Shown here: one piece after another, positions 1,613 through 63,948 of the stretch
How positions within the stretch are numbered: the stretch's first letter is position 1
How the letters are laid out: each line of letters begins with the position of its first letter
DNA from: Sphaerolaimus hirsutus
Lineage: Eukaryota > Nematoda > Chromadorea > Monhysterida > Sphaerolaimidae
Reading direction: 5' to 3'
NCBI GenBank assembly: GCA_964036195.1
Contig: OZ038458.1
Span: 8,817,832-8,881,831, forward strand
Length of the DNA stretch: 64,000 bases
Program-made: the position numbers and the translations under genes
The notes under the pieces: model-generated
What the model was told of the DNA's origin: nothing
Databases searched by the model: none
What the model saw: only the letters and a program-made list of their open reading frames with translations

Positions 1613-4600
1613 ATCGATTCAGTCCGTCGAGAGTTGCGCGACACTCGCGTTCGATTGCAGTCCGCGGAGCGGGAAAACGTTCAATTGAGGGGAGTTTTGA
1701 AGTTGGAGAACGATGCTGCAGGGGATGACATTCAGGATGATTACGGTAGTGGAGGGCTGCGAAAGGTTGGTGGGGGGGGGGGGGGTCTAAAACACTAAAA
1801 ACTTTTGGCGTCACAATTCATAAGGGTCATTTTGACCGTCTGTCATTTTTCAAACGAAGTGCAATAGTGGCAATACTTTGACGGTGTCAAGGGCGGTTCC
1901 ACACCATGTAAAATGTCCCACAAATTGATCAAAAGTCATTTTGAATGTGCGAAAATGTTTTAGTTTTTATAATTACAGTACAGGGCATTTCACATTTACC
2001 CCATGTGATGTTCGTTCCAAATATTTGTCACATTTTTTTAACTTTTGAAGCTAAACTTTTCATTTAAATATAAAAAAATGAAACAAGGGTTCAAGAATAT
2101 TTAGGCTAGAGAATTGCTCGCCCCATAAATCTGAACGTCGGAATACAGCCGCATAGTATCCAAATAATATCAGACAGAATGTACTTTACAATTTACATGC
2201 ATCATGTTATCTCATGCAAAAGCTGTGTTTGAAGCGATATTTCAACCAAATAAAATACGAATCCTGGCACTGCTCTTTAATATTATGTTTGTGCACATAA
2301 TATTTCCATGGAATGTTACTGAAGCAATCATTAATGTCGATGGTTTTGTGTACACAACTTTTATGTTGGTCATAATTTTGGTCACACCAGTCACAATGCA
2401 CTTTGCTGCTATCTTCTCGCTGGGCTTTGTACTTAAAAAATACACTTGTAAATACACTAGTTGCGACTGTCTCTTGATAAATTTGGTCAAGTGGAGCGTG
2501 AACTTTTTTGTGTCGGTCTATTTGAATAAGCGATCGCACTATTCACAAAATGCTTGCAAATGTAGGTAAATATTGTAGGTTATATTTATTACTATTCTTG
2601 CCTATTGTAGACAGAAATTTTATTAATTTTTGTCCTGAGAGAACAGCTGTTGCATGCAAATTACGTGTTTCCGTATACACTCGTATTTCCGAATCATTGC
2701 ATTTTATGATAGTTCTAAATACTAGGGTGGCAGAATTTACCGTACCGTACCGTACCGTACCGCATTTTTGGAAAATTTACCGTACCGTACCGTACCATTT
2801 ACCGCACTTTTAGAAATTTAACGTACCGTACCGTGTACCGCATTTTCCAAAATTTACCGTACCGTACCGTGTACCGCACCCATTTACCGCAGAAAATGCG
2901 GTAAATTTTACTCAGATTGACCTTAAAAATTCACCTTAAAATTGACTTTAAGATGTGGTGTTCTGTAAAGTTTTTGCGCGCAAGCGCGCAATTTTGGCAA
3001 CATTGTTTTGACTGATTTGAAACCCTTCCATTTCCACATGCAATATTGCTGTAACGTGTTTTAAAAATCAAGCCATGTGCTTCAAATCTCACTGTAGTTG
3101 TTTTACACCATCCTCAATGTTTTGAGCTTATTTGTTGCAGGTACATATGTATGCACTTATATACTTTTTACCATTTTCACCCACTTAGCAATTTTTCACC
3201 CACTTTTAGCAATTTTTCTCCATTTCTTCCTTCTAAACCTTAAAAAAGCCTATATATTGAGCCACTGCATTGTGGTTAATGTAATTCTATGTTATCACAA
3301 TGTTATTGTGTTCTAAAGTCCATCAACAGATTGCATAATTCAATTTTCTGTCAATTCATGAAGTAAAAGTTGTCTGTAGTCCGGCATTGGTACATTTCTG
3401 ACAAGCAAAAATTTACCGTACCGTACCGCGAACCGCAATTTTCAGATTTACCGTACCGTACCGTTTACCGCAAAATGAAGATTTACCGTACTGTACCGTT
3501 TACCGCATAAGAGAAAATTTACCGTACCGTACGGTTTACCGCAAGGCCGTACCGTCTGCCACCCTACTAAATACAACGAATAAATTGTTCCTTGTTTCGA
3601 TTTTTGAAGATCACATAGTTTTTCACCAACGCAGCGTAATGTTTTTCGAAATAGAAACATCTGCCTTTTGTACACATTACACCTGCCACACATTCATGAT
3701 TTATCATCCAAATAGTAATGGCTCATGTGTAAAAATGCGTGTGTACATATGTATACTCAACGGACCGCATGCTTTACACAGAATGTTACCATATTTTCAG
3801 AATAAGGTTCTGTGATAAGCTCTGTGCTAAATTAGACCATATTAAAAGCAGTAAATAATGAACAGAAAATTTAAAAAAAATTGGTTTATTATTCTGACAG
3901 AATATGGTTTATCTCAGTGCAGTGAGACTATACCAACGACTAATGGAATATAGAATTCAATTTTGAACCACCCTCCTGCTGCGAAATTTTCATTAAACTA
4001 TTGGTTTAAAATCGTATATGCCCAAATTTCAAGTGTGGAACAAAAGCTACACTTCCAGTGAATTTCTTATTTGAAACAGTACGCCTGAACCAAACACTGT
4101 GCCTCCTATAGCAAAACTTTTTTGGCATTTTCCGTCTATGTCACTCTACCGTAATTTACCATACCCACAGTTTCCGGTATCCCCGACCCTGTCCCCATCT
4201 TCTACATCGACCGGATCGCACCACCACCAGCAACAGCCGCACTTGCACCGGTTCCCCACGGCGGTATCCCCTGGGAATTACGGTAGCGTCGGTTACGGTA
4301 CCGGTGGCGGAGAATTGCACGAATTGAAGAAGAGTTTGGCAGCTGCTCAGAGGGAAATTAGCAAGAAAGGCAGGGAGATATTGTCGTTGAGGAAGGAAAT
4401 CGATAAGGGGGTAGCTGGGGGTGCCGTGAAAGAAGGGGTGGTCGGTTGGGGTTGTTTTTTTGCCGTAGTTGCTAACTTGCTACTGCTGAGGGGTAGATCC
4501 TGGATATTATATGCCTTGTTTTTCGTGCGGAGTGCGGGAGTAAACTGCTCATCTTGGTTGTCTGAATCACATACAGGTTGAAACTTTCACTAGTTAATTA

Positions 4601-7600
4601 TACTAAATAATTCATTATTTCTCACCCCCCCCCATTATTCACAGGTCCAACAAACCCAGACATCGATCTTAAGCTCCGCCCACATGGCGACCAACACCAG
4701 TCAACTGGTCACCGAATCGATAGCTACACTCACTGAACCGATATCTCTGTACAATGCGCATGGCACCGGATTTAGGAGTGAACAAGAATGTGTGGACACA
4801 CTGGTGAGGTGTGCGCGGGCTATGGGATTGAAAGAGAATGAGGTCAGTTGAGGTTCTGATGGGATGTTAGCGTAAATGCTCGATTAGGTAGTTCTACTAG
4901 CTTGAATAGTTCATCATAGTAAGGATATTTATCTCCATGCAACAGTGTTTTTACACAATGAATTGAATAATTCTCGACGGGAACTGTCAAAAATTATGTA
5001 TTTGTTTGTGCGTCAAAAAAATAATGTGATGGGACAATTGTCAAATTCAGTATTGGTAGCGGGTTACCAAATTTTTGGGCTATAGAATTTTTGGGCTCCT
5101 TGCAATTTTGTAGTTTTATAACGCGATGAAACTTTATTGTCAACATTTTCAATTATTTTTCAACCCTTCACTCAGATCGACGCGTGCCTAACTCAATCAT
5201 CCAGTGAGGAAAATGGTGACATCAATGACCAAAAAATCGGTGTTAATGACAAATTGTATGCAATAAAAGCTGACAACTCTGAAGACCAAGCCCAATCTTT
5301 GCAAAATTCACGACCAAAACTACTCGCTTTGATGATTGAGAAAACAGTACAGAGATGGAAAGAGCAGTTGGAAAAAGCTACTGAGAAAATGGTCCATTTT
5401 GAGCAGCAGAGAAAAAGTGAAGAGCAAAAAGTTTGTTTGTCGCGTTCAAAGGAATTTTCTTTCTGTATGGAATGCGTGCGTGCCTGTAATTTTTCCCGCG
5501 GTTTATAATTTTTGTGACATTCTCTTATTTCAATGCAACTTTCCACAAGTGCACGCTAGTTTTCACTTCTAACTTATCACCTACTGGTTTATCAAACTTA
5601 CACTTCTAACTGTTGAATTTTGTCTGCATGATTATTTTGTCGCTATCACATTCACTATTTTTTAGACTTGCACTGCGGCGGCTGGCCAAAAACGCGTAAT
5701 CACAATTGACCACTGCGAAATTTGTGACAATGGAGCTGTGGTTAGAAGAATTAAGGTATGCTCGGCCTTGGTGCACGTATTTTGTAGTTTGTTTTGAATG
5801 TCATGCAAAATGTCTTTTTGCTATATTTGGTATGAATTTGCTAGCTATTTTCCTACCTATCAATCACAGAAAAATTCACTTTCGCCATTTTCCGAGCATA
5901 TTCACTATCATAACAACGCATTGACCTTATTTTTTACAATTCACCTACCCTGCACCGGCATTTGACATAACTTTATAGTCCGATTTGGACGTGTGCCAAA
6001 TGGAAATGACTCGATGGAAGCAAATCGCGAATGAGAGTCGCGCGAATTTGAGCGATTCGGGGCTCGACTCTAATTTAGCAGCGTTGGTACTCGAATTGGA
6101 ACAGGAGCTGCTCGATGTGCAGGTTGTACTTGTGATGGATTATTTCTCTGATGTTTGCCTCTTGTGCATGGAACGTGATCTTTTCTTCTTTACTATTTAC
6201 TTTCTGGAATTTACTCTCTGCATGAGTTTGCACTTTTTCCAACGTTACCTCTGAATTGATGCCAGTCCAAGGGTTCAAATGGGACTTCGATCAGTCAACA
6301 TCGATCAACAACTCGAGCAACACATTTCGTTATTTTATTGTCTCAATCCCGACACACCACCCCATTGAACGTTTGTAGCCCAGTCCCATTTGAACTCCAG
6401 TAAGTGTTCTATGAAATGGCAGATTTCACGCAAGGTATAAAATTACTGGTGAAATTTTATTAAAAATCTAGTGCGGAAATTGCCATTTGTTAGCGGTAGC
6501 GCTACATGGGCACCGGGCGGGTTGCCAGCGGGAATCGGGGATAATGGGTGGATGACATTGTACCAGTGTTGTAAAAATGTATTTACATTTACCTGAAATA
6601 CCCAGGTATTCAGGTATTTATACTTACGTTTACGTCCAAAAATACTGTTACGTTTTGTTACGTTTTCCTGGCACAATTACCTGGGTACCAGTGAAAACAT
6701 AGAAAATTGCCATTTGGTAGACTCACTATCAAAAACCCCATTTAAATTTCTTTCCAGACTCTGCACACGGAAGAACTGACTCAGCAAAATTCACGTGTGA
6801 TCCAGCTGCAGGAGCGACTGAAACACGAGGAGGAAATGAGGAAACAGCTGCAGCAAGATTTGGCTGGTATGTTCAGTTTTGCCACACTTCCTTCACACTC
6901 CACGCGGTTCCCAATGGGTAACGGATGGATCTGTGCTCTATATCTGGCGCGTCCTGGAGACAACTCCATATCTAGTATCAAATGACCTGTTATGTGATGC
7001 AAAGTTCTCAGTGTCTTCGCAGTGACAAGCAATATTATTTACTATCGTATCATCAGTTTTATGCATTGATTTCTGGAAGCACTTTACCGGGATTTTTACC
7101 AGCCCTAGCACATGGCTGGAAATTCGATACACTCTCTACATTTGCCAGTCGACAGCATGTGGTATTACAAATACCAATCTCAATTGCACCTACACGCACT
7201 CAAACAAATACTCAAAAAATTTGCTCTCTCATCGAATGCCACACTACAATTACACCCCCCCCCCCCAAAAAAAAAATTACAAAAAATAACTCTTACAGCG
7301 GCGCACCAACACTGCGAGCAGTCTGTGAGCGCCGTGCGCCGCGGCCACGAGGAATTAGTAGCCGGAATGAAGCGGGAACACGACAGGGCGCTCGCAAGGC
7401 TCAAGAGAGACCAATTGAGGGAGTTGGATGAGGAAAGGTGAGGGTTTTGGTTTGAGTTGGGGTTTTTTTTTTTGGGGGGGGTTGTGTAATTTGTGTGGAT
7501 TGATTGGAAACATGGGTTATTGATTTTGGTATTTTTTTGTTCAGGATGGCCACTAAGACGGCTCTCGACGCCCTGCAAAGAGCCCACGCTGAAGACTTGG

Positions 7601-10004
7601 AGAATTTGCGACTGAAGTATGAAAACGAGAGCAGAGGCAACAGGGCCATGTCCATCGGATCATTAGCGAAAAGTGCAAGTGAAGACTCGGTTTGTCTCAT
7701 TTCAAAATCACCAACCACCACAACCCACCCTAAAACTCACAATCAACCTTCGCAGCTGCAATCAACCTCCTACCACAACCTACAACAACCTCCCTTCTCT
7801 TCACAAAACCACAACTCAGCCAACACCAGCGGGACAAACACTACAGACAGTCCAAAATCGCATCACAAGAACCGGTCCCATCTGTGGGACTCGCTGAGCA
7901 CTGAACTGTCTGAATTGTCGGCCGCGTACAGCGCGAAATGCGTGGAGAATGCCAAATTGCAGGAGGAGTTGAGTAGGAGAAGGTGGAAGGAGGGTGAGGG
8001 TGAACAAACTGGGCAAGGGGAGATAGAGTGAGTTGTTTTGTTTGTTGTTGTTTTTTTTTTGTTTTTTTGGGGGGGTATTTTGATTGGATGTTTATATCCC
8101 AAAATGCTTGGATGTGTGATTTTTAGGGAAACTTTTTATATATTTTTTTTTGGGGGGAGGGTTGTTTTTATTATCAAAATTAGGGGAAAAATTGATTCCC
8201 CAAATATGCTCACCTGTGGGTAGCCTAATATGTTTCCGGTAAACAAAGAGAGTCTCACGCATAATGTGATGGGTTTGCGCCAGAAGCGTGTCAAGTGTCT
8301 GTATCGAATGTGCACGCCACAGCTGAATCAATATGCATCGTCCACCGTTTTTACGATCACATTGACCCAAACTCAAATTTCAGCTCCTCATCAAGCGAGT
8401 CGCCGGCCGCCTTGCTCCACACCCAACAAAAGTCTGATAAAGAATTGGAAGAATACCAGCGACAAATAGCTCAGCTCGCCGAACGGCTCAGGATTGCTGA
8501 AACGCATCTCAGCGACGCGAAGTTGGCAGAGTGCCAGAAGTGCGTCAAAAGTGAGCAGTGTTTGAATAACACCGATGTTTTGAGCCAGGATGGTGATGAT
8601 TTTGAGGATGGATCACAAATTCGGGAAACTGGACGTTATGATGAAAATGTTAAAAACGGCGAACAAAAAGCCAGTTTGTTGCAAAGAGGTGTGTGGAATT
8701 TTAAGTGCTTGTTTACTTGGTTACGATTTCTTTAAGTACGGTTGTAATTTTATCGACTACAGCTTTGGAGGCAATTGAGCAGGGGTGAGTAAACGGTGTT
8801 GTGCATTTTCCAAGTAATAGACACTAAAACCGTTTGTCGTGTTTGTAAATACATTTCTTTTTTACATCTTACAAGTTAATACAGTTTTTACAATTCTTGT
8901 TTTATCAATTTTTAAAATACATTTACAATGTTTTGCACTTTTTGTGCTGTGTCGACTTTTTATCACCACGTTTTATCGAGATTCCCACACACTAATTTCT
9001 AATTGTACCCCTGCGAGCATAATGTATTTTTACCAAACCGTGGGCGGGATATTTTTTAGCCCGAGTTTTTGGCAGCTTCTTTCATTACAAGCCTGGCAGC
9101 AGCATTGGAAAATTGGGCGATTTATATTTATAAAATATAAAATATCTGATTAAATTTTTAAAATGTTTTTACAGCTTTTCTAAGAGAGATTTCGTGGGAA
9201 TATATTTGATTATATTTTCTCAAAAGTATCCAGTTTTCCATGATACTAACAGCGAAAGAGTTTGTTTATTGTTTAATATACAATATTGTTTATTATTGGG
9301 CATCATGTAAAAAAATTCAGATAAAAAATACAATGAATCGGGCTGCCCAAAAACGTGTCGGGCTAATCAAATTTGGTCCCAACGTTGAATGTGTACATTT
9401 CAGTTGGCCCGGCGAACGACTACCGCCCGCAGCAACAGCACAGAGCGAACGGCAGGAATCGCAGAACTGGTTTGTCATTTGTCAATGTCCTACCTGAGGT
9501 TTTGATGAAACATGGGCAGTATGTAAAATGGCTTTAAACAATAAAAGTGGACACTGTACACTGCAAAGTGAGGTGTGTGGCCTATGTTAAAGATTGTTAA
9601 ATGTGTCATGTCAGGAAATGACGTATATCGACATAGACACAGACATAACTCGAACACTGTTCCTAGAACATGAATACCTTGGTAAGAATTGTTTCCTCTC
9701 ACAATTTAACGCTAGACATCATTGTATCCCTTGTGTATTTGCCAAGTCCACATCTCCCTCTATAGTTTTTGACAGTTTCCACGTTTTGTGGCTTTAGCCA
9801 TTTCTAAGGGCCATGTTTTGACTTGAAAAATCTTAAATACTCAGCTTGATGTTTTTTACGTTTGCAGACCTGCGTTACCACAGCACGCCGACATTTCTCA
9901 CAAAATCGTTAATCAAAGATTCAAATGATCCTATTTTGGGCACACCAGTGGCGGAACGTCGAAAATATTTCGAATCGCTTGCTTTTGGCGTCGTGCCAAC
10001 GTGA
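1613..10004 (+). CDS. Coiled-coil protein, MPRIP/TRIOBP/outspread-like, 5' partial
   Basis: Thirteen exons splice with consistent phase into 789 residues ending at TGA 10002-10004: 1613-1765, 4171-4410, 4645-4842, 5176-5430, 5666-5755, 5979-6122, 6758-6866, 7299-7437, 7545-7982, 8384-8688, 9404-9498, 9615-9681, 9868-10004. All junctions are GT-AG. The product is rich in heptad-like E/K/L/Q stretches (exons 1, 2, 4, 6-10), with a His/Gln/Pro-rich patch near its second exon and a Ser/Thr/Asn-rich linker in exon 9. Two segments in exon 9, ALDALQRAHAEDLENLR and LSELSAAYSAKCVENAKL, resemble as I recall them the C-terminal coiled coil of myosin phosphatase Rho-interacting protein and outspread, actin-associated scaffolds. 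The PH domains expected in that family would lie upstream of the window. The C-terminal exons (ending KYFESLAFGVVPT) match nothing I know. Exon structure is well supported; family membership is inference. Confidence 0.7.
2723..3566. mobile_element. hAT-type non-autonomous element made largely of CCGTA repeats
   Basis: Ends are TAGGGTGGCAGA and its reverse complement, flanked by a perfect 8-bp duplication CTAAATAC (2715-2722 and 3567-3574), the hAT signature. Both subterminal regions (about 2735-2900 and 3410-3555) are runs of ACCGT/CCGTACCGTA in inverted orientation. The centre carries TTTTGCGCGCAAGCGCGCA at about 2972-2990. There is no transposase ORF. It sits in the first visible intron of the coiled-coil gene. 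Confidence 0.9.
6568..6684. mobile_element. Short MITE in intron, 8-bp flanks
   Basis: About 117 bp starting GTTGTAAAAATG and rich in TTTACGTTTACG-like motifs, flanked by the same 8 bases GTACCAGT at 6560-6567 and 6685-6692. The internal ACGTAAACG/CAGGTATT motifs recur at 11.6-12.5, 13.1, 18.3, 32.0, 36.4 and 55.4 kb. Confidence 0.6.
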
Positions 10005-10244
10005 TGCCTGTGTAAATTCCTTCTTGTGTGACTCTTCTTTGTAAATTTCACTTCCAGTGAGTTGCATTTGGGGTCGGATAATTTTTTTATACCATATACC
10101 TAACATGTAATCTATCAAAAATTAAATGTGAGGTATTTCTTTTTTGGAGTACTTTTGCGTATTTTTATAAAGGGATTTAAATAAATACGAACGGCATGAA
10201 ATATATCGTGTGTGCAAATAAATATGTTCTTATGTAGGGTAATT

Positions 10245-15929: not shown

Positions 15930-17063
15930 TAGGGTGGCACAAAATTGTTCTTTTAACAACCCTGTTTGTTTACATATAAAACGTTTTTTTTAAAGCTCCC
16001 TTTTAAAGCTAAATGGTTATGGGTCTACACACTATGGGTACTATGTGATGTGAAATTTAGGCATAGAATAGCTGCGGAGCCTAGGGATAGCATTAGAAGT
16101 GGTACGTTCTGTCAAAAATACCCATTTTTTGTCAACTTTTTACATATATCACCTTTTGTCAAATGTTCGTGACTTCAAGTCAAGTTTTGCATGGAATAGT
16201 GTTTAAATATCATTATAAGAAAAGGCTAATACATTGACAGTGATTTTTCACAATGTAGAAGTATGTGGGAGCACATTGGCTGGATATCATACACTACACT
16301 AACATATCACAGCTTATTATGACACAATAGTATGAACAAATCGAAGCTTTTACACTAACAATGCCTCAAAACCAATGAAAACAACCACCAATGGTAATGT
16401 GTATGTGAAATTGTGCACTTGTGTGCAAAAAAAATTGCAAAATACCTAGTGCTTAGTAGGGTGTCAACTTTCCGTTTCTGCTTTCCAAAGGCAAATTTTT
16501 TTCCGTTTCTGTTTCCATTTTCTGGCAGCTAATTTTTTTTTCCGTTTTTCCGGCTCATTTTCCATTTTCCAGCTAAATTTTTGGTTTTTCCGCCTTTTTT
16601 CCATTTTCCGGTTCAATTGTCTGTTTTTCCAACTTTTTTTACTTTCCAGCTCAATTTTTTGTTTTCTGTTTCAGCCAAACTGCATGCAGGCTCTCAATTA
16701 TGTGAATTTTTCCCATTTTTAGCAAAATTTCTGCAAATTTTTTATTTCTGGATAAATTTCTGCAAATTTTTTTCCATTTCCGGCATATATGCAGCAAATT
16801 TTTCTGTTTCTGTTTCCGTTTTCCGGCCTTTCATTTCTCCGTTTTCCGGCAAGTGCAAAATTTTAGCCATTTCCATTTTCCGGCAAGTGCAAAAATTTTT
16901 CTGTTTCCATTTCCTTTTTCCGCCAAAAAGTTTTTGTTGACACCCTAGTGCTTAGTACAAAAAAATTTGGCTGCTGTTTAAAAAAACGGTTTTGATGCCT
17001 GTTTTAAAAATAAGTACAATGTTTTTTTAATTTAAAAACCGTATAAAAAACGTGCCATCCCTA
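15930..17063. mobile_element. hAT-type element, TAGGGTGGCAC ends
   Basis: TAGGGTGGCAC opens the element and GTGCCATCCCTA closes it, with a perfect 8-bp duplication GTCACAAG (15922-15929 and 17064-17071). The interior (about 16200-16450) is the conserved core shared with 22868-23981 and 63294-63948, including AAAACCAATGAAAACAA and a decayed version of the GC-rich motif (GTGCACTTGTGTGC at about 16413). It is interrupted by the element at 16457-16947. Confidence 0.9.
16457..16947. mobile_element. hAT-type element, TAGGGTGTCAAC ends, pyrimidine-tract interior
   Basis: TAGGGTGTCAAC and its inverted copy GTTGACACCCTA are flanked by the perfect 8-bp duplication GTGCTTAG (16449-16456 and 16948-16955). 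Almost the whole interior is a degenerate repeat of TTTCCGTTTTCCGG-type units with a strong C/T strand bias. This is the innermost layer of the nested stack. Confidence 0.9.
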
Positions 17064-21878: not shown

Positions 21879-21907
21879 TATTAGGATAAAAAGACTGCCC
21901 CTGGGGA

Positions 21908-22533: not shown

Positions 22534-27453
<4,920 letters not shown>

Positions 27454-28549: not shown

Positions 28550-29186
28550 TTGAATGTTGAAGTCAATGAAAGAAACAAAACACTCTTAACACAAACCAAA
28601 AATCGCTTTTCATGTGATATTTTAAGCGCCTTCAGCGCACTAAAAATAACGATTTTTCCTAGAACAAATTTGCAGTATGAAAATGAATAAGGAAATACCA
28701 CACAACGAAAAAATGTTAAATTATTATTTTTGTCACAGGATTGTAACATATTTATGTACGATAGACCGTCCCCGAGCATGTCGAATGTAGGACACAAAAA
28801 GTACATTGTTTTCTAGTTATGGATGTGGATACACATAAAATCCATACATATATATGTTACAGTGCCAATGACATACAAACCCATTGATACCTGCCGAAAA
28901 TGAATATTGGTGAGCGCAAAGTCCACGTCGCTCCAGCGCGCAGCGACCAGAACTGAAGGCGACACGAACTTATTGCGCCGGCTTGTTACCAATCAATTAA
29001 AAGCTTGACGAAAAAAAATCCCGAAAGCAATTATTTCATACAGATACACGGTAGGAAGGGTGGGGGAGGGTGCGACTAGCTGAACTTCCCAATTAAATCA
29101 ATAGGTATTTCAGTCTATAAACTGCAGCTTCAAGGCAGCCAAACCATTTACCCCCAAGCCAACCCCCCCCCCACCCTACCCCCCGC

Positions 29187-32466
<3,280 letters not shown>

Positions 32467-32658
32467 GTTGTGATCTCTTTGTCGCAGCAGCCACAGCCGC
32501 CTGTTTGCGCGCAAAAGTTGCAACAGCGACTGGGAATGCGTCGGGTTGGACGGCGGCTGCGCACCAGTGAGCACTTGCTGCCACAGGGACGCGGTGTCCG
32601 ACTAAAGGGGAGAAAGTTGGGTTCGGATGTGACGAGAAAAAATTCCTGTGTGTGATGT

Positions 32659-32858
32659 NNNNNNNNNNNNNNNNNNNNNNNNNNNNNNNNNNNNNNNNNN
32701 NNNNNNNNNNNNNNNNNNNNNNNNNNNNNNNNNNNNNNNNNNNNNNNNNNNNNNNNNNNNNNNNNNNNNNNNNNNNNNNNNNNNNNNNNNNNNNNNNNNN
32801 NNNNNNNNNNNNNNNNNNNNNNNNNNNNNNNNNNNNNNNNNNNNNNNNNNNNNNNNNN
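32659..32858. other. Assembly gap, 200 N
   Basis: Exactly 200 undetermined bases, a typical arbitrary gap size. The sequence resumes with the start of the same block that begins at 28550, so the gap separates the two CK2-alpha copies. Confidence 1.
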
Positions 32859-33491
32859 TTGAATGTTGAAGTCAATGAAAGAAACAAAACACTCTTAACA
32901 CAAACCAAAAATCGCTTTTCAGGTGATATTTTAAGCGCCTTCAGCGCACTAAAAATAACAATTTTTCCTAGAACAAATTTGCAGTATGAAAATGAATAAG
33001 GAAATACCACACAACGAAAAAATGTTAAATAATTATTTTTGTCACAGGATTGTAACATATGTAAGATAGACGGTCCCCGACCATGTCGATGTCGGACACA
33101 AAAAGTACATTGTTTTCTAGTTATGGATGTGCATACACATAAAATCCATACATAAATATGTTACAGTGCCAATGACATACAAACCCATCGATACCTGCCG
33201 AAAATGAATATTGGTGAGCGCAAAGTCCACGCAACTCCAGCGCGCAGCGACCAGAACTGAAGGCGACATGAACTTATTGCGCCGGCTTGTTACCAATCAA
33301 TTAAAAGCTTGACGAAAAAAAAATCCCGAAAGCAATTATTTCATACAGATACACGGTAGGAAGGGTGGGGGAGGGTGCGACTGGCTGAACTTCCCAATTA
33401 AATCAATAGGTATTTCAGTCTATAAACTGAAGCTTCAAGGCAGCCAAACCATTTACCCCCAAGCCAACCCCCCCCCCACCCTACCCCCCGC

Positions 33492-36832
<3,341 letters not shown>

Positions 36833-37440
36833 GTTGTGATCTCTTTGTCGCAGCAGCCACAGTCGCCTGTTTGCACGCAAAAGTTGTAACAGCGACTGGG
36901 AAGGCCCCGGGTTGGACGGCGGCTGCGCACCAGTGAGCACTTGCTGCCACAGAGACGCGGTGTCCGACTAAAGGGGGGGGAGTTGGGTTCGGATGTGACG
37001 AGGAAAAATTCCTGTGTGATAAATATTTACATCAGTTTGAGGCGTAGAAAACAGCGGACCCTCAGTTGACCACACACATAATCCAAAATCACACTCAACC
37101 AAAATCACAAAATCCAGCCGAAACAAAAAAATCTGAAATGCACCTGCGACCCCTCCGAATGGAAGGTCGCAACGCGCAACCTGGCAACGGCGTGCGACCG
37201 GCGGCAGACGAACAGCGTAGCCAAGGTGCCCACGGCGGCGGCTAAGCCAGATATGGACCGCCACACACTGCCGCCCCCACTGCCGCTAGCCGAGGCGCCG
37301 CTGCCGCCACGCCGCTGCGTCCGCTGTCTGGCCGCCGGCGTAACTCGCGACCGCCTGGAAGCTGGAGTCACAGCAGTTGCCACCGAAGCGCACTGCCGCC
37401 GCCCGCTCACGCTGCGATGAGGGAACGGTTGGGCGACGGA
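36833..37440 (-). other. CK2-alpha 5' exons (untranslated, frame open)
   Basis: Minus strand: exon 36833-36967 (acceptor TTTAG at 36968-36972) runs straight into the coding start. An upstream exon ends at 37144 with donor CAG|GTGCAT and extends to an undefined start near 37440 or beyond. The CK2 frame stays open through both exons and the junction, reading for example [20 protein letters not shown] just before the ATG, but contains no upstream in-frame ATG. The GC-rich exon (37150-37420) contains a possible CpG-rich promoter region. Confidence 0.6.
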
Positions 37441-42580: not shown

Positions 42581-48777
<6,197 letters not shown>

Positions 48778-49300: not shown

Positions 49301-49653
49301 CAGGGACGTATCCAGGATTTTTGAGCGGGGGGCTACTTGTTTACGGAGGTTGTTGTACTGGGGGGGGTCACATACACATGTAAATACACACATAAATATG
49401 TAAATATACGCATATGTAAATATACACATAAATATAGAGCGGCAAGCACGCCATTGGTGTATTTTCGGGATAATTGAGGGAACACGTACCGATTTGTCGA
49501 TAAGAACCCTCTATGAAAGAACAATGCTTGCGCGCAAAATTGTTTCACAATAGCTCGAAAATTGGTACCAAATGTAGCATTTTTACCGAGTTTTTCTGGT
49601 TTCACCCGGGAACGGGGGGCTGCAGCCCTCTCCCACCCCTGGATACGGCCCTG
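49301..49653. mobile_element. CAGGGACGTATCCAGG element, degraded
   Basis: CAGGGACGTATCCAGG at the left and CCTGGATACGGCCCTG at the right are flanked by GTGTACCG and CTATACCG (6/8). A partial core GCTTGCGCGC is at 49526-49535. Immediately right is a TACCGTATTTCCG fragment (49655-49760). Confidence 0.75.
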
Positions 49654-50518: not shown

Positions 50519-51118
50519 GCCAATTCCGCGAGAAGTTGAGAAGTAAGAAAGACAACTTATTTAAGTGGCAGGTAAAATGGCAAGTGAAAACAAGGACGTA
50601 TCCAGGGGGGGGGGGGCGGGGGGGGCTGCAGCCCCCCCCCGCTCGCGGGGTCGGACTTGGAAAACACGGGGAAAATCAACTTTTGGTAGCAATTGATAAG
50701 GTGTGGTGTAAAAAATTTTGCGCGCAAGCGCGCATTCGTCTATCTCACAGAGGTATTATAGAAAATCGACCCTGTTAACGCAATTCCGTATTAAATACAC
50801 TAAATGGCCGGCCTGTCGCTCTATATGTAGGTGTATTTACATACATAATAAGCGACTTTTGACGCCAGCGCCAACGCCAATGGCGCCATGGCGTGGCGCC
50901 TACGAATGACGCCAGCGCCATGGCGCCATTCCCTCACTTTATAGGTAAAATTTTAGGGGGGGGGCTGAGCCCCCCCCCCCGTTCGCCGGGCTCCGTAAAC
51001 AAGCAGCCCCCCCCCGCTCAAAAATCCTGGATACGTCCCTGAGTGAAAATGTGAACAATGTGAACCAATGTGTCACTTGTAATCTTTTCTTTGTACTTTT
51101 TTACTCGCGGAATTGACC
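50519..51118. mobile_element. TTCCGC foldback MITE enlarged by a nested insertion
   Basis: CAATTCCGCGAGAAGTTGAG on the left pairs with TTACTCGCGGAATTG on the right. Most of its length is the CAGGGACGTA element at 50591-51041 inserted into its interior. Confidence 0.7.
50591..51041. mobile_element. hAT-type element, CAGGGACGTATCCAGG ends
   Basis: CAAGGACGTATCCAGG and CCTGGATACGTCCCTG are flanked by the perfect 8-bp duplication AGTGAAAA (50583-50590 and 51042-51049). GCGCGCAAGCGCGC is at 50720-50733 and the GGCGCCA cluster at 50862-50930. Confidence 0.93.
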
Positions 51119-54621: not shown

Positions 54622-54624
54622 CGG

Positions 54625-54835: not shown

Positions 54836-55105
54836 TAGGGTTGGGGAACCGAACCAAGAACCGAGCAATATTTTGGAACCGAGCTTGAGAACCGAACCGG
54901 AACCGAGAACCGGCACTTATACCCGGAACCGAAGTAAATACCCGAGAGAACCGAAATTTTCTACGAATCTTAAAGTTTTTAAACAGCGTTTTTTCAACAC
55001 CTACATCTAAGGCCTTTAAACAGCAGCTGAACATCTTGGTGTGTGTTTAGAATTGCAAAATTCATCTGTTTGCAAAATGATTGCGCGGGAGCGTGTAATT
55101 TTACA

Positions 55106-55295
55106 TATACTCCAGCGACATTACACCTTACAATGAAATCTACCATATCCCACCTGAATAAAAGAACAAACAGAAAAATTTCATCATATTTATCAAATTG
55201 CTTTGATAATTATGATGAAATTTTTTTATGTATGTTCGTTTATTCAGATGGGATATGGTAGATTTCATTGTATGGTGTAATGTCGCTGCAGTATA
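55106..55295. mobile_element. Palindromic MITE, TATACTCCAGCG ends
   Basis: TATACTCCAGCGACATTACA and its inverted complement (TGTAATGTCGCTGCAGTATA) bound about 190 bp. The inner arms ATGAAATCTACCATATCCCA also pair. It splits the core of the 54836-56769 element right after the GC-rich motif. Confidence 0.8.
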
Positions 55296-56010
55296 CACAT
55301 TATCACTATAGTAGTAGTAGTTTTCATTGGTTTTGTGGCAGTTTTCACCGTAGTTGGCAAAAGTTATTTATGTTTGTACTCAAAATAATACGCGTACTCA
55401 CTCGCGTACTACATAAATAGATTTACGTTTCCTCCAGAAAAAATACTAGTACTCATTAACTTGTGTACTTTTTGAAAGTACGCGAGTACAGAAAACGTGG
55501 TGTTTTATACTTATTGTCAGTACTTTTCTATTGCACACGGCGTGTGGCTTGGGTCAACGGGTGTGCAACAGACGCCATTATGCGGATTAGGCGGATTAAC
55601 GTGACATTTGTAGATAAATTATGAAATACAGACGAAGAAATAATTGAGTGCATGATTACACGCCACACAATGTGTCTTGATAAAACAACGCAAAGTTTTC
55701 ACCTGCATATGGATGACAGTCAGTTGCAGAAATTGTGCAAATCATTGGTCCGAAGTTCATTTGTAAATCACAGCACTGTATTATTTTTTACTTTACATAT
55801 GAATTGCGCTATTTGTGCTAATGGCGTCTGTTGCACACTCATTGACCCAAGCCACGCGCGTATGCAATAGAAAAGTACTGACAATAAGTATAGTGAACCG
55901 AAAACGTATATGTTTGCTTTTACACTTTTTAGTTAAATACCAGTATTATTATAACAACTCTGATTTCTGCATTCTACCATGAATTAATAAGCTGTGATAT
56001 GCTCCTGTAG

Positions 56011-56490
56011 CAGGGGTCTCCAAGATTTTGGCCCTCGCGGGGGCTGGATGGATAGCAAATCGCTCCTCCCGAGGGATAGATAGCTGAAAAAAAATTTCTG
56101 GGGGGGCTTTGGGGGGGCTCGCGGGGGCAAAATACATAGGCTTTTTCAGTGCATAGAAGGCCGAAAGGGGAAAAATCGCTAGTAATTGGTTAAAAGTGGC
56201 TCAAAGTAGGTTTAAAATGGCTAAAAACAGGCATATAACCATGTATATAGCTGGAGAGCACGATTTTGAAGGTGAAAAACTAGAATAAGGTGCAAAAATG
56301 AGTGATTTTGAGCGAAAATTGGGGGAAAATTTCTCAAAAACCAGATAGATAGATAGCTGAGCGATTTGGGGCGGGTCTTTGGGGGTAGTAGCCAAAAAAT
56401 TTGCCTCGGGATAGATAGATAGATAGCTGAGCGGCCTCCGGGATAGATAGATAGCTGGTGGATTTGGGGGCCCCCCCTAGGAGACCCCTG
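56011..56490. mobile_element. hAT-type element, CAGGGGTCTCC ends
   Basis: CAGGGGTCTCC and GGAGACCCCTG are flanked by the perfect 8-bp duplication TCCTGTAG (56003-56010 and 56491-56498). The subterminal regions hold GATAGATAGATAGCTGAGCG repeats. Inserted in the 54836-56769 element. Confidence 0.93.
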
Positions 56491-56817
56491 TCCTGTAGTA
56501 TGAAATATCCAACCAATGTACTTACATATGTAAACTTGGGTATATTGTTTTTCTGTTGTTCAGCCAATTATTACCCGATACCCGGATTTTTTATTACCCG
56601 GAACCGAAATTTTGATCATTTTAGAACCGAAAGAACCGAACCGGAACCGAGTTCAAGAACCGAACCGAGAACCGGAACCGAAAATTTTTAGGAACCGAGA
56701 ACCGATACCCGAACCGAAATCTTTTAGAACCGAGAACCGCAACCGAAAATTTTGAAATTCCCAACCCTAGCCCCTGGTTTTGGGTGTAATGATTCTGTCC
56801 GCGACGTGGCAGATATA

Positions 56818-57380
56818 CAGGGTGCGGCAATTTAGACCTGCGCTCTAGATTTCGAATAACTTGTCGCTGGGGGGTCGGATTAATGTCAAATTTTAGGTCT
56901 ACATTAACAACTAAATAGGAAAGGATTCCTAAAAATATGGCTGCGATAGCTCTACTTGTTCACAAGTTATTCATGCGAAAGGGTATTTGTCTCTTTTCCA
57001 CCACCTTGTGATATCGTTCAAACGGGATTGACTTCTCGGGACCGGAATCGGGACCGCATTGTTTTTTTCAGTTTTTTTTCTTCTGATTTTCTTCTCGCAG
57101 CTGCATGCTTAAATGCGTGCACGCCCGCCACCAATTCGCTATGCCCATAAGGAAATCGGCGGGCGCTTGCGTAGTTGGTCGTAAAGCTAGGTGGTGGAAA
57201 AGTGACAATTACACGTTTCCATGAATTACTCGAGAACGAGTGGAGCTATCGTAGCCATATTTGTAGGGATCCTTTCCTATGTATTTGTTAATGTTGACCT
57301 CAAATTTGACAGTAATCCGACTACCCAGTGACAAGTTATTCGAAATCTAGAGCGCAGGTCTAAATTGCCGCACCCTGTAG
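56818..57380. mobile_element. Foldback element, ACAGGGTGCGGCAATTTAG ends
   Basis: Second copy of the family at 51353-51893: ACAGGGTGCGGCAATTTAGA on the left, TAAATTGCCGCACCCTGTAG on the right, arms pairing over more than 100 bases. The flanking TA is consistent with TA duplication. Confidence 0.8.
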
Positions 57381-57533
57381 ATGGGCGTACTCTCGGGTAC
57401 ATTCGAAATATTTCTGTGTTTGGAAATAGACCATACCTCAGCCATACTGCTATCGTAAATTTACACGCGGTTACATTCTTCACCCAAAGAAGCTGCTCTC
57501 GCGTTTTACACCCCCATTTCACCCCACCGGCAG

Positions 57534-57692
57534 CCCGCCGCCGTCGCTGCCAGCACCGCCCTGAGCGGCCCCGGCGCCGACATCAGCGCGGCCGGCGGCT
57601 GGAAAAGCGGGCTGGGCCGTGGCGTGGCGCTGCGCAGACGGCGCAGCCAGAGCCGGCCCTGCCCGCGTGTGCCCGCCCAGCCGCCTCAGGAG
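57534..57692 (+). CDS. Probable exon of the unrecognised gene (phase link unresolved)
   Basis: Acceptor CACCGGCAG, donor GAG|GTGAAT, 53 codons in the frame reading ADISAAGGWKSGLGRGVALR, then RRRRSQSRPCPRVPAQPPQE. Strong third-position GC supports coding. In this frame it ends in phase 0, while the next exon (58027) needs one carried base, so either a small exon is missed or a different frame is used. Similar to the block at 54172-54320. Confidence 0.5.
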
Positions 57693-58026
57693 GTGAATAT
57701 GCATGGCTTGGGTTTTTGTCACTTGTAGTTTTGGTGGTGCTTTCGTGGAAAACTTCTTTGCAGGTTCTTGTAAGTTTGGGTGTTCGGATGGATGGTATGT
57801 ATTTATCTCGCTCCTCCCATGGGGTATATTGCGGGGCGGGTACAATATATTTCTATGCTTTTTCCAAACTGCAGGAGGCAGAAGAAGGAAATAACCAAAA
57901 TCTTTTCTTGTCAGTTTGCGTTCCATTCGCGAATGGCACCATGTAAACGAACCATCAGTGACCATCACATGATTCACATTGCGCAATTCAATACGAGTTG
58001 ATATTTTTATGTTAAAGTAATTACAG

Positions 58027-61000
58027 CACCAATATCCACAATAACTCAGCCATTGGACGACTCCGGGGACGAGGCGACCCTGACGGCCGGCTGGGCGGGC
58101 ACGTGCCTCGTGGCCCCGCCGCCGGCCCGCCCCCCGCCAGTGGTCTACAGCGAGCTGGCGGCGCTCACGGAGAAGGTCGCCAAGTTGGCGCCGCACCTGC
58201 TTCAGGGGTTCGTTGTTGCGATTAGAGTATTTGTGTAGGTATTTTCATTGGGGGTTCGGGGGATGTCAGTTCATATGGGCTTTTCGTGTTTATGTGTTTT
58301 TTTGCAATTTTGATTTAGCCGGATTTCTTACACAAGATAATGATGGATAATAAAAACAATGTTCGCTTCAGTGTCCGGATTTCTGGCCGCCTTCATTCCC
58401 GCCATTTTATCTTTTTTCATACAAATATCAGAATCCTTCTGTGCTGTTTGACAGTTTGAGTTCCCACCGCACTATCACTACTGCAGGAATATACTACCTA
58501 TATTGTTGTCTCACCCAGGCACACCACCCTGAGCAGCATGAAGTTGATAGCATGCACCCTGGACAGGCTCTATGCTGGGGAGCCGTCCATGCGTGCTGTC
58601 AAACTGAATAATTTGGCAGCGTGTGTTATTCGCCAGCTCGAGGTGGTGCTGGTGCCAGTGGAAGAAAAAATGAAAGAAAGTGGCAGTGAATCAATGTGAG
58701 CATGTTTTCAGGGTTTACCTATGTGAACACCTTCCCGGACAAGTACACCACCCATTTTTTTTTCACTTCGGTTGTAATATCTCCATCTATGGGGGTGTTA
58801 TAAAGCTGAAACTTTTAATAAATAAAGTTGTAACACCCCCCTACTCTGCTTCAATGGGGGGAGGTGGGACGACTCACTACAGGGTGGGTTGCCCTATATG
58901 CAACAATTTTTTTGGTTTTTTGGTGTCCCAAACAAGTTCACCACCCACTTGATTAGCTACACTTCGAGGGTCATATCTCCAGCTGTGAGGCTGGTATAAA
59001 GCTGAACTTTGGGGGATGTCTTGCCAACAACCCCCCCTTACAGTACACCAGTGGGGTACCTGCCAGCGACCCACTTTGATACGCGTTGCTGCATGAACAG
59101 TTGTTAATTTTTTCAAAACAACCCAAGTGTCCCAAACAAGTTTGCCACCCAGCTGCATTATAAATAATGTTGTGAGAACATACCTTATATAAAATTCAGT
59201 CAGATTTGAAACCTAGTTCTCCTCATAAAAATTTTTTCCAGTAGGGTCCCACACACGCTAGTTGACGCCAAAAATAGCGTCAACTCAGAGTCAACTGGTC
59301 AAAAATTCAATTGACTCTGAGCCATTTACAATATGTATCCAAAAAATCTCCTTCTTTCATTCTACATCAATCGACTTCTCAATATTTCTTAATCAACACA
59401 GGTAAAAAATTAAAAATAGTTATACTTAAAACAGTTGACTCTGAGTTGACTCAATCGACTTCTAAAAAGTAGCGTCAACCACCGTGTGGAGCGCCTAGGG
59501 CACCCACCCCGTCCCAAAAACAGCAGACCGAAAATTTCACTTTGAACCAATTTTTTGTTTCACACTTCAAAAGTTGGTTTACAAAGTTCAATAGGGAAGG
59601 GTTCAAGGTTCAAAGTTATGTAAAAAACATTACCTCTAAAATGCATCCATAAGGAAATTTATTTGGTGTGAATATTATGATGTCATAATCACAACATTAC
59701 AGGAACAAAATTTGACAAAATTTTCACTTTTTCATTCACCCCAAATAAATTTCGTTATGCAGGCATTTTAGAGGTTATGTTGTTAACATAACTTTGGACC
59801 TTAGACCCTCCCCTAGTGAACTTTGTAAACCAACTTCTTATGTATGAAACAAAAAATTGGTTTAAACTGAAATTTTCAGTATGCTGTTTATGGGACAGGG
59901 TGGGTGCCCTACTGGAAACTTTTTGATGAGTAGAACTGAGGTTCAAATCTGATAAAATTTTATATCACGTTTGTTCTCACAACACTTTTTTATAATGCAG
60001 TTGGGAGGCGAACTTGTTTGGGAGACTTGAGTTGTTTGTAAAAAATGAACAACTTTATAAGCGGAGACCCATGCTGTAGTGGGCCGTTGGCGGTCACCCA
60101 CTGGTGTATTGTGAAAGGGGGTTGTTTGCAAGGCAACCCCCAAATTACAGCTTTCTATCACCGTCACAACTGGAGATATGGCCCTCGTAGTGTAGATAAT
60201 TAAGTGGGTGGTGAACTTGTTTGGGACACCAAAAAAGCCACAAAAAATGTTTGCATATTGGGCGACCCTCCCTGTAGTGAGTCGCCACACCTTCCCCCAT
60301 TGATACGGAGTAGCGGGGTGTTAGGACAATATACCCACCAAATATTAGCTTTGTACCACTACCATAGCCAGAGATATTGCATCTGAAGTGAAATAAAAAA
60401 ATGGGTGGTGAACTTGTCCGGGAAGGTGTTTACTTAAAAGATGTTTTATATATTATTAATGTGTGCATCCATGTCTGCACCGATTTCAGTTGTTTTTGTG
60501 CATACAGGTCACTGTCCAGCGCCACTCCACAAATTGGGCAGGGGGATGAGGACAACCCTTGTGCCAAATTTCTACCTTCTTGGTCGACTGTGGAGGGTGT
60601 GAGTATTGGGGAATTGCGGGAAGTTGTTTACTCATCACTAGGGTACAAATGGGATAGACTTTCGGGATCAGGATTTTTTTTTTATCTTCAGGATTCGGAT
60701 TGAATTTTTGACTTCTGGGATTGAGTCGGGATTAGGGTCTCAGGGTCGGAATCAGGATTATAGCCAAAACATTCTGGTATTTAGGGTTTTTTTGTAATTT
60801 TTCCCATAGTAATCGTGTTTCAAAAAGGGTAAAAGTTTCAAATAGGTATGTAAGTGACGTAAAACTTGGCGCCTATATCAATGAAGTCAATGCAGGCGCC
60901 ATTTGAAATCGCCGGACTATGGGAGGTTTAGCGTTGGCATTGACACCCATGTCCTATCATTGACACCATCGTGAGACATAAATAACTGCGTGTGCAGAGT

Positions 61001-62636
61001 GTCATGTCAGTTGAGTATAGTGGGATGGGCAACGCATTGAATGCATTTGTAGTGGTGTTTACACCCATGCAACACAGATACTGTGAGGTGGGGAAATCTG
61101 CGTGAAACATTAAATTTAAATGCCTACAAACTCGTCATAAAAGTGCCATTTTATGTCTGGCCTGGGAAGGGGGTGGCAAATTTTTCTGGGATCAAGGTTT
61201 GTTCAAGCTTAATCGGGGTGAGTATTGGGGCCTCAGATTGAGGGCTCTGGCCTCTAGATGAGGATCTGGATCGCTTAATACTTTGCTGTCGCTGAGTATA
61301 TCATATCCGTAATACTATTTCCTCAAATTACTCTCTTGAATAAACCCACCTCCTTGACATACCCCCAGGACTGAGCGAGCTGAGGAAAAAATAACGTGCG
61401 GAATACCCCCGTCCTGGAATAAGGTTCATGTATGCAGTGTACATGACTGCTCCCAATATGCATGGCAGCTACACATTCATTTTTCAGTTGTTTTTCAATT
61501 TTTCATCCCATTTGACTGGTTTGTGTAGCCATCTATGTTGATATGTCTAAATATATCCTGTTTTATCACATTTATTACTAGTTTTGGGTATGTAAAGCCC
61601 ATCTTGATTATGATCCATTTCGAAAATTACCGGAGAAATGATAAAACCTTCCTCGAAATACCCCCCTCAAAATGTGCACTGCAAAAACAAACCCACTGGG
61701 GGTATTTTGAGGAAATACGGTACATCATGTATGCAATGTACATATGTATTTATTTATTGCAATTTGCATCTTAGTTATACTCGGCGGACAGCATGCTATG
61801 CATTTTTCTGAAGGAAACACTCCATCATGACGTCATCATTAAAAAAATAAAAATAATTCCAGCAAAAAAAGAAACATTTCGGGAAAAAACATTCCTCGTT
61901 TGTACGCGACTCCGCCTTTTCTGTTTTCAAAATATTTTTCTTTTTGTGAAAGTGCATAAGTATCCAGTTCGCGCGTTCTCGACCAAGACATAAATAATTT
62001 TGGGCGCATACTTTGCGGTCCGCCGAGTATACACAGAGTATTATTGTGTTGTTCATCAGCATTTTCATGAAAGTCTGTTTTTCATTTACTCATGAATAAA
62101 GTAAATATTTCAAACTTGAAATTTTAAGTGGAGTAGCTCCACAAACCAGTTGATATTCAGCTCTGATCACTGTGATGTGTTGAAATAATACATCATTATT
62201 GTTGCGTGCATCCTTTAACCAACACTACTCGCTCAGCATTTCCATTTTTCAATTTCCATTTGTATTCCATGTGTCAATTAGGTCCTGGGCACTCTCACTG
62301 TTTTTTTATGTTGTCTTTATGTTTTATGTTACATTGTCTAAACTTCTCCATATTACATTCTACATCATTTACATTCTCATTACACTCAGTTCAGTGGGAT
62401 CAAGGGTGGATTTTTCTCAGCTCACACAAACCTGGGGCTATTTCAATGGGTGGGGGGTATTCAAGGCAATATGATAACTCTAATATTCCCGCAGGCATTA
62501 ATCTTTGTCTCTGTGGCCAGTTGGTTGCTGTATGGCAACCCAAGGTTGCTGCTGGATATGCTCCTTGTGCTAGTTGCCATTAGGTGCCTTCCTGATGTGG
62601 CGCATTGTGTGGATGGCACTTTGCTTCTTGTGGCTG
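58027..62636 (+). CDS. Unrecognised protein with hydrophobic segment, partial
   Basis: Four exons join in phase: 58027-58207, 58519-58695, 60508-60598, 62495-62636 (donors GG|GTTCGT, AT|GTGAGC, GGT|GTGAGT, G|GTATGT). The reading begins PISTITQPLDDSGDEATLTA, has a Pro-rich linker (VAPPPARPPPVVYSEL), a probably helical region (ELAALTEKVAKLAPHLLQG, KLIACTLDRLYAGEPSMRAV, NNLAACVIRQLEVVLVPVEE), an acidic linker (ATPQIGQGDEDNPC), and ends with a hydrophobic stretch (ALIFVSVASWLLYGNPRLLL, DMLLVLVAIRCLPDVAH, GTLLLVA) that looks like one or two membrane segments. Both ends are missing, the 3' end probably beyond the window. I do not recognise the family. A 1.7 kb foldback element fills the intron before 60508. 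Confidence 0.6.
58726..60430. mobile_element. Foldback element, AACACCTTCCCGGACAAG ends
   Basis: AACACCTTCCCGGACAAG at the left pairs with CTTGTCCGGGAAGGTGTT at the right. Inner segments also pair: TCACCACCCACTTGATTAGC and neighbours at 58935-59160 against 59990-60230, and a central hairpin at 59520-59640 against 59750-59900. The central motif CATTTTAGAGGTTATG also occurs in 13326-17113, which has the same CACCTTCC ends. It contains the small GTCAAC element 59244-59495. Confidence 0.75.
59244..59495. mobile_element. Small GTCAACT-family element
   Basis: CCACACACGCTAGTTGACG on the left pairs with GCGTCAACCACCGTGTGG on the right; internal AACTCAGAGTCAACTGG and AGTTGACTCTGAGTTGACTC. The uninterrupted host sequence can be read from the opposite foldback arm (GGGTGGGTGCCCTACTGG), which shows the interruption follows CCAGTA. 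Confidence 0.75.
61307..61722. mobile_element. CCGTATTTCC foldback MITE
   Basis: The left end ATCCGTAATACTATTTCCTC and right end GGTATTTTGAGGAAATACGG are inverted, with CCCCC/GGGGG adjoining. Internal CATGCAGTGTACATGACTGC text also recurs near 45800 and 61730. Confidence 0.6.
61776..62031. mobile_element. MITE, TATACTCGGCGGACAGCA ends
   Basis: TATACTCGGCGGAC on the left and GTCCGCCGAGTATA on the right. Only about 25 terminal bases pair here; the interior differs from 11313-11506, so the two share ends but not middles. Confidence 0.75.
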
Positions 62637-62689
62637 GTATGTGGGGGATAAGGCTTAACTATATTTTTTTAGCCTGGATGACTACAAAT

Positions 62690-63004
62690 TACCGTATTTC
62701 CACGAAATACCCCCGGGGGGTTTATTTTTTCAGAGTGCTAATTTTAAGGGGGGTATTGCGAGGGGGTATTATTTACCAGGAAATTTTTGAGACAGATCGT
62801 AGTAAAGATGGGCTTTTACGTACCCAAAACTGGTAATAAAAGTGACAAAACAGGATATATTTAAATGTATCGACATGGGTAGATGGCTACACAAACTAGT
62901 CTCATGTGTAGCATGATGTACCTTTTTCCAGACGGGGGTATTTTGAGGGGGTTATTTTTTCCTCTTCTCAAAAAGTCCTGGGGGTATTTCGAGAAAATAC
63001 GGTA
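62690..63004. mobile_element. CCGTATTTCC foldback MITE
   Basis: TACCGTATTTCCACGAAATA with CCCCCGGGGGG on the left; GGGGGTATTTCGAGAAAATA followed by CGGTA on the right. It begins about 50 bp after the exon ending at 62636. Confidence 0.7.
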
Positions 63005-63293
63005 GACAGAATTCACCCTTAGCCCAAGGGGTGTTTTGTGGTAAATGGTTTGTTTAACTATCATGGTAAATAATTTGCAAAATAATGAATACCATATATC
63101 CTTGAATAAGTACCCTGGGGAGTTATTTTTTCACCAGAATTTTTTCAAGGAGGGGGGTTATTTTTCGAAAGAAAATCCAGGAAAGTTTCCAATTGATTTG
63201 TAGTGTGAACAGGTTAAATTAAATTCATCTATATATTTTATTATGCATTCATAATAACTTTACACCACCAATGACTAAAATTTGTGCTCATCA

Positions 63294-63948
63294 TAGGGAT
63301 GGCCAAAAAATGTTTTTTTAATGACCCTGATTTAAAAATAAAAAAAACGTGGGTTTTTTTAAAAAGCTCCCAAATATGGTTATGGGTCAACATATACAGG
63401 TATATCAGACAATTGCCAGTACTTTGTGATGCTAAATATAGCCATGGAATGGCTGTGGAGCCATGGGATATCATTACACATGGCTATTTCTGTCAAAAAA
63501 TATCCATTTTTTGTCGACTTGTTACTTAAATAGGTATATCGCCTTTCGTGACTTCAAGTCAAGTTTCACATGGAATAGTGCTTGAATAAGGTTATAAAAG
63601 AAGGCTAATACATTGACAGTGATGTTTCACACTGTATGTGTTTGTGGGAGCACATTGGCTGGATATTATATACTACACTAACATATCACGGCTTACTATT
63701 ACACAATAGCATGAACAAAGTTTTCACACTAAAAATGCTTCAAAACCAATGAAAACAATCACCAATGGTAAAGTGTATGTGAAATTGCGCGCTTGCGCGC
63801 AAAAAAATTGCAAATACCTAGTACATAGTACAAAAAATTTTGGTTGACGTTTTTTTTATTTAAAAAAAACCGGTTTCGATGTCTCTGTTTTAAAAAAAAA
63901 ACAAAAAACATTTCTTAAAGGACGGTTAAAAAACATCGGCCATCCCTA
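63294..63948. mobile_element. hAT-type element, TAGGGATGGCC ends
   Basis: TAGGGATGGCC and GGCCATCCCTA are flanked by GCTCATCA (63286-63293) and GTTCATCG (63949-63956), 6/8. Just inside are AAAAACG/CGTTTTT runs. The core includes AAAACCAATGAAAACAA and a perfect GCGCGCTTGCGCGC at 63787-63800. This is the least interrupted copy of the family. Confidence 0.85.

Follow-up and report, generated by a model that had tools for sequence, protein, structure and literature searches.

Miniature inverted-repeat transposable elements (MITEs) that share an internal sequence between different ends have been reported from Acropora corals, where, as Wang et al. (2010, PMC2872659) present them, the CMITEs carry different terminal inverted repeats (TIRs) around a shared 75-bp internal region that is more conserved than the TIRs themselves. 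The same account describes CMITEs as piggyBac-like elements of ~100 bp with TTAA duplications and CCYT ends, estimated at ~1,600 copies in A. millepora, reports that a novel coral element arose through CMITE insertion, and suggests that the shared region aids transposition. Here we analyse a comparable arrangement in the nematode Sphaerolaimus hirsutus, in a window of 64,000 nucleotides (the whole stretch, contig OZ038458.1, positions 8,817,832 to 8,881,831) in which a 14-bp word, GCGCGCAAGCGCGC, hereafter the core, lies inside hAT-like MITEs of several families. A preliminary description of the window had placed the core within elements of different termini, which is borne out, and had known of no description of such an arrangement, which does not hold, since the coral CMITEs had been reported in 2010 (PMC2872659). 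As in the CMITEs described there, the core of families A, B and C is more conserved between families than the ends are, although over only ~28 bp and not over most of the interior. Unlike those CMITEs, the nematode elements are hAT-like, with 8-bp duplications, CARGG or TAGGG ends and full copies mostly of 410-850 bp, and their ~28-bp core is one-sided, occurs in more than 10,000 exact copies and is found in multi-family mosaics.

The second system for comparison is Hermes, in whose transpososome the BED domains bind the left end and none binds the right end (PMC10368747). In cells, Hermes requires left-end DNA to between 140 and 190 bp, owing to a feature that the authors state to be unidentified; since ~70% of activity was kept when the deeper BED sites were mutated (PMC10368747), this feature is probably no BED site, which points to a host factor rather than the transposase as the partner of the core if the parallel holds. 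According to the same source, several hAT elements depend in cells on roughly 100-220 bp of end sequence. The likeness lies in the Hermes features of left-end-specific contact, a quasi-palindromic pair of sites and a deep left-end need, and the one-sidedness and deep position of the core would fit the Hermes left end. Unlike the core, Hermes BED sites read AAGT/AAGC, those that are bound being close to the tip, and no motif shared across families appears in the passages of PMC10368747 considered here. According to PMC8097297, CGG or CGC is the usual preference of domesticated proteins derived from hAT elements, and for four proteins encoded by hAT elements the motif matches subterminal regions of the element itself, so that the CG-rich core could be a plausible target. 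A 14-bp word kept on a fixed side, at a fixed distance and in a fixed direction amid changing neighbours offers a concrete candidate for a deep left-end feature. Brassica MITEs are reported to amplify an E2F site, reaching high copy number with one factor-like motif tied to particular MITE families; here, families with unrelated flanks carry the core.

The exact core occurs 10,683 times (5,358 + 5,325 by strand) in the 348.5-Mb genome, against 0 + 1 matches of its reversed-letter control, and 10,683 of the 12,248 GCGCGCNNGCGCGC sites genome-wide have the central AA/TT. Within the window, 17 matches with at most two mismatches, counted for this near-palindromic word on both strands, stand against 0.06 expected from shuffles, and both comparisons rule out a chance origin. 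The exact cores of the preliminary description (starting at 2976, 23252, 30769, 36230(-), 46568(-), 50720 and 63787(-)) were all recovered, as were its two decayed ones, each with four mismatches, and its partial one, whose last four bases are changed; the core at 22999 exists, with two mismatches. The core sequence was not found in print in the open-access library searched, its 19-base version had no exact match in viral contigs, and the 64-kb window holds no Rfam match and no tRNA.

The position of the core was assessed in a sample of 75 exact sites, comprising the seven in the window and the first 68 of 100 listed core places, all on contig C1. At 68 of these sites a motif resembling a left end (A-type, CAGTGGCGTAGCC, TAGGGWTGG or the C end, with up to one mismatch) was found 55-280 bp upstream of the core, against 8/75 on the opposite side and 40 of 500 random core-free positions; the seven sites lacking it have A or B flanks and look truncated by eye. 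Core hits are therefore not as frequent outside elements as inside, a possibility that the preliminary description had raised against itself. Paired ends with a target site duplication (TSD) of at least 7/8 were found at 51/75 core sites compared with 25/300 random core-free positions, at least three of the 51 (L012-, L020+3249 and L029+6759) being spurious or an enclosing element and the L026 site having a low-complexity duplication. Among copies with an exact core and both ends found, the core starts 69-134 bp from the left end in A (one copy at 69, the rest at 111 or more), 119-176 bp in B, 205-225 bp in E and 253 bp in C; in the single F copy (L019) a core with one mismatch lies 265 bp inside.

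The same regularity holds genome-wide. At 101-131 bp from an A-type (CARGG) end the core occurs 1,955 + 1,940 = 3,895 times in the right orientation and 6 + 7 = 13 times flipped; a core equally far from the A right end would count among the flipped ones, so the core is almost never found there either. For TAGGGWTGG ends and a distance of 119-149 bp, the counts are 1,186 + 1,155 = 2,341 right against 12 + 15 = 27 flipped. Assuming no double counting, the two right-orientation sets comprise 6,236 of the 10,683 exact copies, the others presumably having mutated ends, other distances or other ends. This fixed place and direction near the left end suggests that the core is a part that these small elements need for spreading.

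Nineteen copies of family A, from 7 subfamilies, can be aligned over their full length; the subfamily consensuses are 20-35% apart and 420-477 bp long (full copies being filtered at 330-600 bp for A and 500-750 bp for B). Conservation in 20-bp bins starts from 0.90 at the left end, drops to 0.40 just ahead of the core, rises to 0.96 in the core bin and falls again to 0.43 behind it, and the core 14-mer ranks 7 of 433 windows. In the right half, values reach 0.84-1.0 near the right end and 0.90 in a bin with a conserved GGCGCC cluster (e.g., in the right half of 23121-23563), which may be a right-end counterpart of the core. Since most copies had been picked by the exact core, the comparison was repeated with the six A elements of the window, chosen by their ends, and with L012, which was not a fetch target; one of the seven has a damaged core. 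Mean pairwise divergence in this set amounts to 0.10 for the core and 0.175 for the terminal 12 bp, compared with 0.43 to the left and 0.57 to the right of the core, and the six window elements all keep the core (five exact, one with its last four bases changed). Being far less diverged than its neighbours, the core looks constrained within A.

The decay of the core points the same way. Among 24 non-exact cores, from which 3 rows not comparable base by base were dropped, CpG transitions make up 35 of 41 changes in the other 21; these rows and the end-chosen set are the only data largely free of selection through the exact core. As old copies decay by CpG transitions, the fact that four CpGs have been kept for so long speaks for selection on the source elements, and selection, if any, would act there and not on individual copies after insertion.

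Flank clustering of the 75 sites gave 40 A, 33 B-like and 2 others by average linkage, used instead of single linkage, which merged 73/75 sites via simple sequence; the labels are rough, because three E copies grouped with B despite an A-like interior. Outside the core, between-group flank identity is 0.43-0.57, at the level of a shuffled left-flank null (0.46, sd 0.11), which rules out A, B and C as one end-to-end family with diverged termini, an outcome that the preliminary description had named as fatal to its view. Strong similarity among the three is limited to -9..+18 of the core start, AAAwwTTTT-GCGCGCAAGCGCGC-AwTTy, or ~28 bp. Twelve profile tests past this block gave p values of 0.06-0.08 for A/B, 0.09-0.65 for A/C and 0.01-0.65 for B/C, the lowest (0.012, B/C left) being non-significant after correction for 12 tests, while unmasked BLAST of single B-type elements against A or C returned 34-74 bp at 73-88% identity around the core, so that a somewhat longer shared block is possible. 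The flank word TTTCATTGGTTTTGT, which the preliminary description had assigned to the TAGGG families, is present in B and D (without mismatch at 23045 and 55322, with a single one at 16366(-) and 63740(-)) but, as a correction to that description, absent from the TAGGGTGGCAGA element of family C; as a 15-mer with at most three mismatches it is weakly enriched in the window (16 vs 9.2 expected, 2/100 shuffles reaching 16). We infer that A, B and C share the core through old common descent or very old capture. The different ends around one core have two causes: A, B and C truly share a left-end core, and E, F and D are mosaics.

Taken together, it seems somewhat more probable than the reverse that the core is a short left-end cis element (~28 bp) of several hAT-type MITE lineages, needed for their propagation. 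It could be where the transposase docks, or a host protein that assists in finding or pairing the left end; only source elements keeping the core would then continue to spread, amid neighbouring DNA that is free to drift. Both the binding of such a protein and its part in transposition are our interpretation of the sequence pattern. More tentatively, and with considerable doubt, we raise the possibility that the core is the deep left-end feature of hAT transposition in cells, one-sided and shared across lineages with different ends, in which case an element gaining the core by nested insertion would gain a better chance to spread.

Several observations weigh against the cis-element proposal. 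The sample itself is biased toward core conservation, 68 of its 75 sites having been picked through the exact core, and the end-chosen comparison rests on seven elements. In B (20 copies in 4 subfamilies, one of which is a single outlying copy at 48-57% divergence; subfamily lengths 517-665 bp), the core bin (0.89) equals the adjoining preceding bin with GCACTAGGTATTTTGC (0.89), so this block is as conserved as the core, whose window ranks 11 of 664. Among 71 elements found in the fetched sequence by TIR and an 8/8 duplication alone, with the core searched up to 420 bp from either end, 41 have an exact core (which in 22868-23981 belongs to the A element nested there), 9 a core with 1-4 mismatches and 21 none, in a sample rich in core loci by design, whose proportions differ from those of the genome. 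By eye, the core-free elements comprise CAGGGGTCTC (9), TAGGGTTCAAAC (4), TAGGGTGTCAA (3) and CAGGGTTGG (2) forms, together with one each of CAGGGGTTTAG (which encloses a B element), an E copy and a B copy with the core region deleted; four of five elements with F-type TIRs lack the core. It follows that hAT movement in this host does not generally require the core. Moreover, no autonomous element with the core was seen, L049 being the one locus read among at least 28 genome matches of the hAT dimerisation domain PF05699, and GCGCGC is absent from L049. Five B-type elements, of more than the usual length in four cases, were inspected as candidate autonomous copies, and by eye no transposase was recognised and nothing in their open reading frames of at least 70 aa looked transposase-like; the extra pieces in L043 and 15930-17063 are other MITEs, and extra pieces also occur in L018 and L025. 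Separately, a hAT-like MITE family with CAGGGGTCTCC ends, 8-bp duplications and no core (56011-56490, L015, L021, L031, L043 and L045) could be a useful control.

The main rival, which we regard as rather unlikely, is that the core serves autonomous relatives as a promoter or transcription-factor site for their transposase gene, has no role in MITE movement and is carried by MITEs merely because they keep the left end. Its confinement to the left side in one orientation, mostly 110-250 bp inside, would suit such a site, as would the AT-rich rims around a CpG-rich palindrome, which resemble factor sites by eye, and the decay of MITE copies at CpG. The A subfamilies, however, represent one non-coding ~445-bp element whose middle is strongly diverged and whose core is intact, and because they align end to end, the core appears to have been kept through long MITE-level evolution, when a promoter would have been useless. 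This objection fails if each subfamily arose separately from an autonomous source.

Module swapping, in which the core passed from one family to another, unrelated one through recombination, gene conversion or nested insertion and without selection, is unlikely as an account of the whole pattern, with an ancient swap as a possible variant, and is nevertheless directly visible in part of it. The core-bearing E elements L010, L026 and L032 hold, flanked by E ends with TATCGAA arrays, an A-like interior that lacks the G/C-rich ends of A, whereas L038:4919-5722 has E ends, a different interior and no core. Matches to the A profile range from 9e-11 to 3e-13 in the three E copies and reach 7e-17 in the F copy of L019, which retains by eye a remnant of the A right end, and D (54836-56769) has pieces of B interior (1e-5 and 1e-4) between GAACCG arrays. 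A second exchange is seen in L026:1120-1918 and L033:1893-2136, where an F-type 12-bp TIR is joined to E-type TATCGAA arrays, so that ends, arrays and interiors occur in differing combinations. We infer that nested insertion made the composites.

These composites also spread. A 22-base word peculiar to the E/A interior occurs 74 + 75 = 149 times in the genome, and since an E end precedes it by 181-234 bp at each of its 12 sites on C1 below 20.4 Mb (by eye), the composite appears to have moved as a unit. With exact E ends numbering 598 + 587 genome-wide, the share of E copies that hold the A core may be put, very roughly, at a fifth to a quarter. The E/A, F/A and D/B mosaics show how a MITE interior gets between new ends and then multiplies, and the E/A series, with its word count of 149, is datable. 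For A, B and C, in contrast, the shared ~28 bp come with no clear donor flank, whereas longer flanks, like those in E and F, would be expected after a recent swap, and swapping leaves the conservation inside A unexplained. Of the suggestion in the preliminary description that a core had been recombined into new terminal sets or selected for, recombination is thus upheld for E, F and D and constraint within A, while the core-free 21 of 71 elements and the failure to find an autonomous carrier speak against it.

Family-specific short tandem arrays (ATCCCG, GAACCG, ACCGT and TATCGAA) lie just inside the TIRs of several TAGGG-type elements, for example in 42920-43333, 54836-56769, 2723-3566 and L026:1120-1918, and one TIR can pair with different arrays. 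They resemble rapidly evolving transposase sites.

Simple inheritance from a single old hAT ancestor, with no function today and with conservation produced by the selection of sites, is improbable. The fetching of 68/75 sites via the exact core would create such an impression, but the end-chosen A elements of the window keep the core in 6/6 cases while flanks (L012 included) differ by 43-57% on average, and the four CpGs of the core mutate fast. That the core is a small insertion or hairpin element placed in many MITEs is very improbable, because, although it is a near-palindrome with a 6-7 bp stem predicted on one strand, its fold is unexceptional against shuffles (z -0.7 to -1.4), its side, distance and orientation are fixed, and no sampled copy is clearly free of element sequence, no systematic search for core-adjacent duplications having been made.

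The elements of the window are listed in the table below. Their short TIRs are of the [CT]A[AG]GG type, as in the hAT superfamily, eight of them have 8-bp target duplications matching 8/8 and three 6/8 (partly by eye), and those of families A and B are short, non-coding and present in thousands of copies, as MITEs are.

Table. Elements, cores and related sites in the 64-kb window (positions within the window).
Feature	Position	Strand	Core	TSD or remark
Family C, putative hAT-like MITE, TIR TAGGGTGGCAGA, ACCGT arrays	2723..3566	+		TSD CTAAATAC
Exact core in family C	2976..2989	+		253 bp from left end
B-type element	15930..17063	-	16413-16426, decayed	TSD GTCACAAG, by eye only
Family B element (TAGGGTTGGCCGATG)	22868..23981	+	22999-23012, own core, 2 mismatches	TSD GATATACC
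Family A MITE (CARGGACGTA)	23121..23563	+	23252-23265	TSD CCGACATA
Family A MITE	30653..31065	+	30769-30782	TSD TTCAGGAC
Empty site for 35929-36374 insertion	31944..32043	+		97% over 100 bp, one TSD copy
Family A MITE	35929..36374	-	36230-36243	TSD TATACTTC (GAAGTATA on +)
Family F MITE (TAGGGTTSAAACGG, ATCCCG arrays), comparison	42920..43333	+	none	TSD ATTGAAGA
Family A element, left end CAGGGCCGTATCC at 46681	45073..46681	-	46568-46581	TSD 6/8 by eye
Family A MITE	49301..49653	-	49521-49534, last four bases changed	TSD 6/8 by eye
Family A MITE	50591..51041	+	50720-50733	TSD AGTGAAAA
Family D element (TAGGGTTGGGGAACCG arrays), B-type interior	54836..56769	+	55083-55096, remnant	TSD GCCCCTGG
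B-type element (TAGGGATGGCC)	63294..63948	-	63787-63800	TSD 6/8 by eye

The A MITE with the core at 23252 is nested within the B element at 22868-23981, and the A element at 45073-46681 exceeds other A copies in length. A long inverted repeat (55115-55295, arms ~70-80 bp by eye) lies in the B-type interior of D, just past its decayed core. The same test that revealed the empty site at 31944-32043, which sits in the other copy of a local duplication, found none for the insertion at 30653-31065. The two ~4-kb copies of this duplication lie within 28550-37018 on either side of a 200-N gap (32659-32858), with aligned pieces 91-94% identical, and may represent a genuine tandem duplication or haplotypes that were both retained in the assembly. 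Both hold kinase sequence (PF00069 for the shared piece, CK2-like by eye), and one A MITE is present in one copy and absent from the other.

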